A DNA stretch of 64,000 nt from contig NZ_AOHZ01000040.1 in assembly GCF_000337215.1 (NCBI RefSeq), positions 1 to 64,000 of the forward strand, given 5' to 3'. The stretch comes from Natronolimnohabitans innermongolicus JCM 12255. Lineage in GTDB: Archaea; Halobacteriota; Halobacteria; Halobacteriales; Natrialbaceae. A model generated the notes under the pieces. It ran no database searches and was not told the origin of the DNA. It saw only the letters and a list, made by a program, of their open reading frames with translations. A program made the position numbers and the translations under genes. Shown here piece after piece: positions 20,306 through 26,058 of the stretch (position 1 is its first letter; each line of letters opens with the position of its first letter).

Positions 20306-20740
20306 TTAGCACTCGATGTTTCCGTCGCTCGATTCCAGGAACACGATCGAATCGTCACCGGTGACGAGCGCGGTCGCAGCCACCGGATCGGACCGAATCT
20401 TCGTCATGTCCATCTCGTGCCACCCTGCGCCGTTCAGTCGAACTTCGAAGGTGAACGCGCCCTCGGCCGGATCCACGTCGGCCGCTTCCACCGTTAGCCA
20501 CTCGTGTGGCTCGAGGTCTGCTTCCTCGTCGTACAGTTGGTCGTCGCCCTCGCGAAGCCGCAGTCGAACGTGGTGCGTCTCGGTCTCGTCGTCGTTGAAA
20601 ACCATCGCCTGACACAGTCGGACCGAGTCCGCTGCCTCGTCGTCCGTTTCGCGGACTCGGTCGAGGCAGCCACCTGATGTCAAGAGCACGCCCCCGGAAA
20701 GTATTTGGAGGGCAGTTCGGCGGGATACTTCGTCCATCAT
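20306..20740 (-). CDS. Putative Tat-exported lipoprotein
   Basis: 144 residues. The N-terminus MMDEVSRRTALQILSGGVLLTSGGCLDRV has a twin-arginine pair and a lipobox ending in Cys, as in haloarchaeal Tat lipoproteins. The mature part is acidic, with alternating strand-like segments (TETHHVRLRLREGD, GAFTFEVRLNGAGWHE) suggesting a small beta-sandwich. No known domain is recognised. TATTTAT on the minus strand (about 20762-20768) lies near 25 bases before the start. It reads away from the AT-rich island and is itself of normal GC. Confidence 0.8.
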   Translation of the reverse strand: MMDEVSRRTALQILSGGVLLTSGGCLDRVRETDDEAADSVRLCQAMVFNDDETETHHVRLRLREGDDQLYDEEADLEPHEWLTVEAADVDPAEGAFTFEVRLNGAGWHEMDMTKIRSDPVAATALVTGDDSIVFLESSDGNIEC

Positions 20741-20847
20741 ATTATAGTTACAGACCCATAAATAAATACTTTATCGCTTGTTTGGAAAGTTAAATCACAT
20801 ATAAAGTTAACAATGTTAAATGCTATATGCCTAGTTATATTAGATGA

Positions 20848-20856
20848 TTATAAATA
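20848..20856 (+). promoter_or_regulatory. TATA box of the AT-rich island gene
   Basis: TTATAAATA is centred 27 bases before GTG 20879. It is the strongest TATA match in the window and decides the start of the island gene. Confidence 0.6.
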
Positions 20857-20878
20857 CTTCTATGATTTAGTTAAATTT

Positions 20879-21877
20879 GTGACTCGAAAACATTCCAGGC
20901 GGACGATGCTGCAGAGTGTATCAATTGGCCTTCTCGGTGGGCTATCGGTAATTGGCAAAGGATCTGCTAGTGGAACCGTAATGCCATGTCAGGATAACGC
21001 CCAAATATTATGTGGCGGCGGTAGCGGCCCTGTTTCACCACCAACTTCTGAAGTAGATACATGGGAAGGAACGTGTTACGTCAATCCCTCTCTTTACAGC
21101 TATAAAGGACACCATTGTTGTAATGTTGACCATGTTGTTAGTGAAACTTTCACTGAAGATTTTGCAAGACATGTTTTTGAGATCAGTTCCCGAGCTGAAT
21201 TTGGTCGGTGGAATAAATATCTTGATGATGGGCCAGAAGATGCTGGTCACGCACCATATATCGAGGGTTTAGGAGTCAATATATCTAATTTTGACTTTGA
21301 TGGTGTTGGTCGTGTGTTACTTCCAAGTGCAGGGAATAGTAATAATGAAGAGACGTGGCTCGGTACTTCATTCGTAGAGAATGAGGATGCAGACGATATT
21401 GATGCAGACGAAGAGAAAGTTGCGGAAGTTTTGCAAGCGGCATTTGGCGCTGCGCCTGTGATTGGAGATGCACTAGACTACTATGAAATAGTTGACGCAC
21501 TCTTAGAAGATCATAGTAGCAGTGCAGGTTATGATTTCCGCTGGGCCCCTGCAGAGGGGGGAACTATGGGTAGCGGAGGCTCTAAGGCAGACTGTACAGT
21601 TAGGTTTGTCATTGAAGATGAAGATCCTGGACAATTAATCTCAGGAACTACCCAATCAACAGTCTGGACAGAAACACCCCATGATGATGATGACTGGGAT
21701 GACAACTCTCACACTCATGAGTTTGATCTCTCAATTGTTGCACCACCTTCTTCATCAAGTCTTTCAAGGGATGAACTAACATCATATCATGTTGAGGAAG
21801 TTGATAGAACAGTAGATATTAACGGTGAAGAACTCAATATGACTCGGCGTTATGTCCCAAAAACCCGAACTTATTAG
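20879..21877 (+). CDS. Tat-secreted Cys-containing protein in an AT-rich island
   Basis: 332 residues from GTG 20879; the in-frame ATG at 20813 would place 22 AT-encoded residues before the signal. The signal peptide reads TRKHSRRTMLQSVSIGLLGG, a twin-arginine motif followed by a hydrophobic core and an ASG cleavage region. No lipobox is present, so the protein should be released or wall-associated. Cysteines in PCQDNAQILCGG, TCYVN, HHCCN and ADCTV could form disulfides. Downstream are acidic repeats DADDIDADEE and HDDDDWDDNSH. No family is recognised. Codon use is strongly A/T-ended, unlike every neighbour, which points to recent transfer. Confidence 0.85.
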   Translation: MTRKHSRRTMLQSVSIGLLGGLSVIGKGSASGTVMPCQDNAQILCGGGSGPVSPPTSEVDTWEGTCYVNPSLYSYKGHHCCNVDHVVSETFTEDFARHVFEISSRAEFGRWNKYLDDGPEDAGHAPYIEGLGVNISNFDFDGVGRVLLPSAGNSNNEETWLGTSFVENEDADDIDADEEKVAEVLQAAFGAAPVIGDALDYYEIVDALLEDHSSSAGYDFRWAPAEGGTMGSGGSKADCTVRFVIEDEDPGQLISGTTQSTVWTETPHDDDDWDDNSHTHEFDLSIVAPPSSSSLSRDELTSYHVEEVDRTVDINGEELNMTRRYVPKTRTY

Positions 21878-21910
21878 ATCATATACTTAAATATATTATT
21901 TATATTATCT

Positions 21911-24852: not shown

Positions 24853-24911
24853 TAATTGTCAGTAACGGACTGAACACCCGGTGGCACAGCTCTCCCGGAT
24901 ACTAACTGTGG

Positions 24912-24918
24912 CTTATTG
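24912..24918 (+). promoter_or_regulatory. TATA-like box for the Bat-type regulator
   Basis: CTTATTG lies 23-29 bases before ATG 24941, matching a leaderless start. Confidence 0.4.
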
Positions 24919-24940
24919 TGTTCGAACGCCAACTGGCGAT

Positions 24941-25609
24941 ATGAGTATCATCGCCGAGTTTTCCATCAAATCAGATGATTTCGCACTGAATCACGCGCTC
25001 ACAGCGGCGCCGCAGATGATCGTCGAAATCGAACAGGTCGTGGCAACGATGGAAAATCGGGTTATGCCGTACTTCTGGGTGACTGGTGGCGATCACGACG
25101 ATTTTGAATCGGCGTTTCAGGCCGATGCATCCGTCACGAACACCGCCGTTATCGACGAAGTGGAGGAGGCGAGATTGTATCGCGCCGAGTGGACGGAAAA
25201 CGTCGAGACCATCGTCTACGCCTACCTGGAACTCGGGGCGACGCTCCTGCAGGCAATCGGCAAAGCGAGCGACTGGGAGTTGCGAATGCGATTCGACAGT
25301 CATGACTCCCTCTCGGAATTTCAAGATTATTGCAACGGAAACGACATTTCTTTCGAACTCAATCGAACCCAGGAACAGGAACAGCCGATGGCGAGCGCCC
25401 AGTACGATCTCACGCCAACGCAACGGGAGACGCTGGTCGCTGCGCTCGAGGCTGGCTACTACGACGTCCCACGGGCGGTGACGATGCGGGAACTGGCGGA
25501 ACAGATGGGGATCGCCCAACAGACGCTTTCAAATCGGTTTCGCGCTGCATACAAGAATCTCGTGACGAGTACGTTGACACTCAGCCACCCAGACGAGAAC
25601 GAAGACTAG
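24941..25609 (+). CDS. Bat-type (bacterioopsin activator-like) HTH regulator
   Basis: 222 residues. The N-terminal 140 or so residues form the sensor part seen in small Bat-like proteins (MSIIAEFSIKSDDFALNHAL, PYFWVTGGDHDDFE, ARLYRAEWTENVETIVYAYLE). The C-terminal HTH_10 domain runs from about 152 to 215: YDLTPTQRETLVAALEAGYY, then AEQMGIAQQTLSNRFRAAYKNL as the helix-turn-helix. It probably binds DNA and responds to a cytoplasmic signal not visible here. A close paralogue is encoded at 52079-52741. It is followed by a small HTH gene 74 bases downstream. There is no receiver or PAS domain. Confidence 0.9.
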   Translation: MSIIAEFSIKSDDFALNHALTAAPQMIVEIEQVVATMENRVMPYFWVTGGDHDDFESAFQADASVTNTAVIDEVEEARLYRAEWTENVETIVYAYLELGATLLQAIGKASDWELRMRFDSHDSLSEFQDYCNGNDISFELNRTQEQEQPMASAQYDLTPTQRETLVAALEAGYYDVPRAVTMRELAEQMGIAQQTLSNRFRAAYKNLVTSTLTLSHPDENED

Positions 25610-25683
25610 TACACAAACGACGAACTTCCCGATCGCGACTCACCCAGTAGTACTATACAGCCCTCCCCCTCTTCCGCAAGGGG

Positions 25684-26058
25684 ATGTTTTATTTACGTAT
25701 GGTTGGAACTTCTCTCGAGTTCGACACACTTCTCGAACTGTGTCACGAGCAACACCGCCGTATCGTCCTCGCAGTACTCGCAAGTGAGAAGCGGTCGCTA
25801 ACGGTGAGCGACCTCACGAAAGCGATCGTCAAACACAACCATCACACCCCTCTCCTGGAGATTTCCGAAGAGGACGTACGCCCGATTCGTCTCTCTCTGC
25901 ACCACGTTCATATCCCGAAGTTAGCGGATCTGTCGCTCGTTACGTACGATCGGGAACGCCAACTGGTGGAACCAACCGCTCAGTTCGATCAGTTGCAACC
26001 CCAGCTTTCGGCCGTCATCGACGCTGATCCCGAACTCGAGGCCCCAGTTGCGCTGTGA
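25684..26058 (+). CDS. DUF7344-like winged-helix protein (first of three)
   Basis: 124 residues. An N-terminal winged helix is suggested by LELCHEQHRRIVLAVLASEKRSLTVSDLTKAI, followed by the family signature LSLHHVHIPKLADLSLVTYD near 80-97, which also occurs as SLHHVHVPKLAEAD in the 26747 gene and [14 protein letters not shown] in the 55601 gene. Such proteins are common haloarchaeal transcription regulators. Start choice is unsure: ATG 25684 fits a TATA-like TACTATACAG at 25651-25660 (24-33 bases upstream), while ATG 25699 (MVGTSLEFDTL) fits typical protein length. Immediate upstream gene is the Bat-like regulator. Confidence 0.8.
   Translation: MFYLRMVGTSLEFDTLLELCHEQHRRIVLAVLASEKRSLTVSDLTKAIVKHNHHTPLLEISEEDVRPIRLSLHHVHIPKLADLSLVTYDRERQLVEPTAQFDQLQPQLSAVIDADPELEAPVAL

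Follow-up and report, generated by a model that had tools for sequence, protein, structure and literature searches.

What does the most AT-rich gene in a long stretch of haloarchaeal DNA encode, and does the gene beside it belong to the same system? The whole stretch analysed here (the window) is 64 kb long and has an overall GC content of 0.65. Positions 20741-21910 have a GC content of 0.42, the lowest of any 1.1 kb in the window, and the low-GC zone, followed in 50-nt steps, is bounded at ~20700 and ~21930. A single ORF occupies this island. Its GC content is 0.44 and its GC3 is 0.30, compared to GC3 values of 0.92 and 0.88 for the flanking genes, in agreement with the sharply AT-rich island and A/T-ended codons described in the original prediction. 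No flanking repeats of note were found around the island. A second, milder low-GC stretch (~0.55) is present at 24881-26058 of the window and holds two regulator-like ORFs. The features of the locus are:

20879..21877, plus strand: gene for a predicted secreted protein of the HalH4 superfamily, 332 aa, GTG start, Tat signal, GC3 0.30
20879..20971, plus strand: predicted twin-arginine signal peptide, HSRRTMLQ...GSAS, with an approximate cleavage place, from the sequence; the RR is conserved in the family
20848..20856, plus strand: TATA box TTATAAATA of the secreted protein gene, its centre 27 nt upstream of GTG 20879
21410..21508, plus strand: conserved core, a predicted helical hairpin with a P-x-x-G hinge (P193, G196), from the family alignment and from a model of low confidence with helices at 178-190 and 193-210
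21542..21544, plus strand: Trp 222, invariant across the 11-member alignment
20306..20740, minus strand: gene for a Tat lipoprotein of 144 aa with a VSRRTAL...TSGGC lipobox, all-beta in a model of moderate confidence; candidate immunity protein
20759..20768, minus strand: TATA-like TATTTATTTA upstream of the lipoprotein start

The secreted protein most likely starts with MTRKHSRRTMLQ, a Tat signal. With the HSRRTMLQ motif of this signal (MTRKHSRRTMLQSVSIGLLGGLSVIGKGSAS) and a length of 332 aa, the protein has the features by which a HalH4-type precursor is recognised, namely a Tat signal and ~350 residues. The sequence TTATAAATA occurs only once in the whole 64 kb, and a TATA box centred 27 nt before the start is typical of leaderless promoters in haloarchaea. 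Because this spacing fits a leaderless transcript, GTG 20879 is favoured over the mechanical ATG 20813 as the start. One exported protein with a twin-arginine signal, behind the best TATA box of the window, was thus correctly anticipated. The protein had also been called disulfide-type. It does contain six cysteines (37, 45, 66, 80, 81 and 239), with residue 239 the only one after residue 81; the cysteines are unconserved in the family, whose members have 0-6 each and share none of the pattern, so this is not a family trait.

The island had further been described as carrying a single secreted gene. This description needs revision, since a Tat lipoprotein gene lies next door at 20740-20306, divergent from the secreted protein gene and 138 bp apart. 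The TATA-like box upstream of its start suggests that the lipoprotein gene has its own promoter. The search for a nearby immunity gene that had been proposed therefore yields a candidate. In the window, L027 and L067, the lipoprotein gene has a host-like GC3 (0.74-0.79) beside an AT-rich secreted partner (0.30-0.45); in L002, L004 and L023 both genes are AT-rich.

Sequence searches of Pfam, NCBIfam and the PDB revealed no family for the secreted protein. A match to Phage_capsid (E 0.04, below its cut-off, residues 141-204 only) was rejected. Scanning viral contigs with four family members gave no match, nor did scanning the genome contig collection with the window protein and HalH4. Modelled without an alignment, the secreted protein reached a pLDDT of 32, which is useless; the lipoprotein model had a pLDDT of 60, and its Foldseek matches were non-significant and of the beta-sandwich type only.

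The original prediction recognised no relatives of the protein. Profile searches of ~470 haloarchaeal genomes revealed otherwise: scattered and very divergent members exist, mostly reached by profile. L002/L003 (44%), L004 and L005 were found when 391 genomes of the class were searched with one sequence as the query, and L023-L027, then L080-L101, were added by profile searches. Profile matches confined to approximately residues 1-60 represent Tat signals and were discarded. The genome itself has one copy of the secreted gene, and no family member was found in the one same-genus genome examined, even by profile, signal-peptide matches aside. Members are spread over several families of the order, in unrelated neighbourhoods, and L004 sits on a 303-kb replicon. 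In one genus with seven species, an orthologue is common to two species, three have other members that differ strongly, and the remaining two lack the family. Most members are AT-rich relative to their host (GC3 mostly 0.30-0.56), with exceptions that include L026 (0.83) and L086 (0.75). At the orthologous site of the sister species G001, the same thiamine-diphosphate enzyme gene is followed by a methyltransferase gene, and the lipoprotein gene, the secreted gene and an FAD-dependent oxidase gene are missing. The spot is variable, yet there is no clean empty site. Had all relatives carried homologues of like composition at this position, that would have spoken against the original prediction; this is not what is observed.

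Several loci showed further features. In L082 (1417-2031) the ORF of the family member ends early (205 codons) and the lipoprotein neighbour is intact. Low-GC3 ORFs with Tat-like starts, unrelated to the family by profile, lie ~7 kb or less from family cassettes (L013 15331-16227 and L032 12991-14142). AT-rich HTH regulator-like genes with similar starts (RYNIMKSISEG... and INILQVVCEE...) were observed near two different cassettes, at L084 2523-3314 (minus strand) and L031 9275-10036 (plus strand), and these are possibly regulators of the cassettes.

We then compared the family with halocin H4 (HalH4; HFX_5264) of Haloferax mediterranei. The HalH4 sequence used is a working version, which we take to be correct and which was checked through primers and L084 only. 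The four published halH4 primers encode MSKDRDG, ATGSSVT, YTDFAL and DEMVYVA, which match the working sequence bar one D/E difference. L084 was found independently by profile search of genomes and is presumably a close HalH4 homologue, with 54% identity to the working sequence over 307 residues. Against a profile of ten members, the working HalH4 sequence scored 57.5 bits over residues 8-296. Against a profile including the window protein, the mature parts alone scored 41.8 bits (L084) and 34.8 bits (working HalH4 sequence), compared to 6.6 bits for the best of 1000 shuffles. Both proteins match the family profile over nearly their full length, also without the signal. Pairwise, the window protein and the working HalH4 sequence gave a non-significant E of 0.03, and the homology between them is one seen by profiles. 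The link between the window family and L084 is independent of this working sequence; the step from L084 to the name HalH4 depends on it, apart from the primer check. Since the mature part of L084 scores far above the shuffles, the window protein is, as judged by profile, a member of a broad HalH4 superfamily, one that lies outside the coverage of Pfam and NCBIfam. Of the original suggestion of a halocin, toxin or adhesin, the halocin guess gains from this profile-level homology; the words 'single' and 'without relatives', and cysteine pairing as the defining trait, do not stand.

Short Tat lipoprotein genes adjoin 18 of the 27 family members, in divergent, convergent or tandem orientation. They are present beside the window gene, L002/L003, L004, L023, L024, L025, L027, L066, L067, L080, L082, L084, L085, L086, L087, L088, L091 and L097. 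No lipoprotein neighbour was detected for the other nine (L005, L026, L081, L083, L092, L094, L096, L098 and L101), of which L092 and L094 are weak family members. L066 and L067 were reached through their flanking lipoproteins, and their subsequent family matches scored 89 and 54 bits; they are therefore not unbiased, and the count without them is 16/25. The lipoproteins beside L084, L085 and L086 fall outside the window lipoprotein family by profile, or barely within it. The background is about ten short Tat lipoprotein genes per genome, about nine of them non-adjacent matches, and by a rough estimate a given gene would have one of these at a distance of 500 bp or less in <1% of cases. The observed adjacency is far above this density. 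Four tandem lipoprotein-like genes lie beside the member in L066 (1-2016), three of them with GYGHH replacing the lipobox Cys. Pair distances of secreted protein and lipoprotein correlate (Mantel r 0.40, p 0.0015, n 14), which is modest support for cognate pairing, as part of the correlation could reflect shared ancestry of the loci. A small partner gene is thus adjacent across divergent loci, as expected of a toxin-immunity pair.

We propose that the locus probably encodes a secreted HalH4-type halocin together with a dedicated, surface-anchored immunity lipoprotein. The precursor of a divergent halocin would leave the cell by the Tat pathway and would probably be cut outside the cell, as the halolysin HlyR4 cuts HalH4 to release an active C-terminal fragment (PMC12893001). 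The genome encodes a Tat-signal subtilase that could process the secreted precursor. The active part may then act on the envelope of competing haloarchaea; for HalH4 itself, perforation of the cell surface has been suggested (PMC6759562). The Tat lipoprotein, lipid-anchored on the producer's outer face, would serve as the dedicated immunity protein. This proposal draws on the profile homology to L084 and HalH4, the recurrent lipoproteins and the correlated pair distances, on the patchy occurrence, the different members in sister species and the low GC, and on the precedent of HalH4 as a halolysin-activated antimicrobial precursor in combination with the subtilase. It is weakened by the non-significant pairwise match to HalH4 and by the nine members lacking a detected lipoprotein.

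These same nine members, and the many lipoprotein paralogues without a toxin neighbour, would fit a halocin whose neighbour is not its immunity protein and has another role or no related one, Tat lipoproteins being common. That the lipoprotein falls in a larger paralogous set with other roles does weaken the immunity assignment. However, adjacency at 18/27 far above background and the correlated pair distances make this reading quite unlikely. The pairing itself would suit an anchor as well as an immunity protein. Hfx. mediterranei no longer takes up DNA when HalH4 is deleted (PMC6759562), so there is room for a non-killing surface role, in which a surface-active protein would remodel the envelope for DNA uptake or cell contact and the lipoprotein would anchor or activate it. 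We consider this unlikely, since the patchiness, the differing alleles in sister species and the lipoprotein array resemble conflict genes rather than a shared cell function, and the only member that has been studied was first obtained for its antimicrobial action. Foreign composition, a single copy, absence from the sister species and the truncation of L082 could also indicate a gene that was acquired recently, is in decay or silent and has no present function. This is highly improbable given the intact ORF and signal, the conserved core residues and the well-placed promoter-like boxes on both genes.

If the halocin and immunity reading is correct, the locus provides candidate immunity genes for protein halocins, which have been known for four decades. 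In the halocin literature examined, an immunity gene is named for HalC8 only and none for HalH4. HalH4 may, with about equal chance either way, be one of a large, patchy and polymorphic superfamily of haloarchaeal toxins with dedicated Tat-lipoprotein immunity genes. The superfamily shows that HalH4 is no isolated case, and its recurrent lipoprotein partner suggests, in a form that can be tested, how producers survive. The combination of an AT-rich Tat gene with a short Tat lipoprotein gene as its neighbour is also a search handle for new archaeal antimicrobials.

Among known systems, HalH4 is the closest comparison. Both proteins are Tat-exported precursors of similar length, homologous nearly end to end by profile, and have the P-x-x-G hinge and the Trp of the core in common. 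L084, the presumed close HalH4 homologue described above, also adjoins a short Tat lipoprotein gene. In contrast, pairwise similarity is not significant, and the lipoprotein of L084 is not detectably of the window lipoprotein family. The halocin C8/HalI system is likewise a Tat-secreted haloarchaeal antimicrobial, and it brings a self-immunity function. One gene encodes both HalC8 and the immunity protein, whereas a separate gene is proposed here. The Cys-rich C-terminal peptide of HalC8 is absent from the window protein, which has one Cys (239) after residue 81, and membership of the halocin C8 family was rejected. NisI and SpaI are lipoprotein immunity proteins of bacterial bacteriocins, lipid-anchored on the surface and encoded beside the toxin gene. 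The likeness to these lies in the arrangement, a lipid-anchored surface protein beside a toxin gene; the window locus would pair an archaeal Tat lipoprotein with a candidate toxin of protein size.
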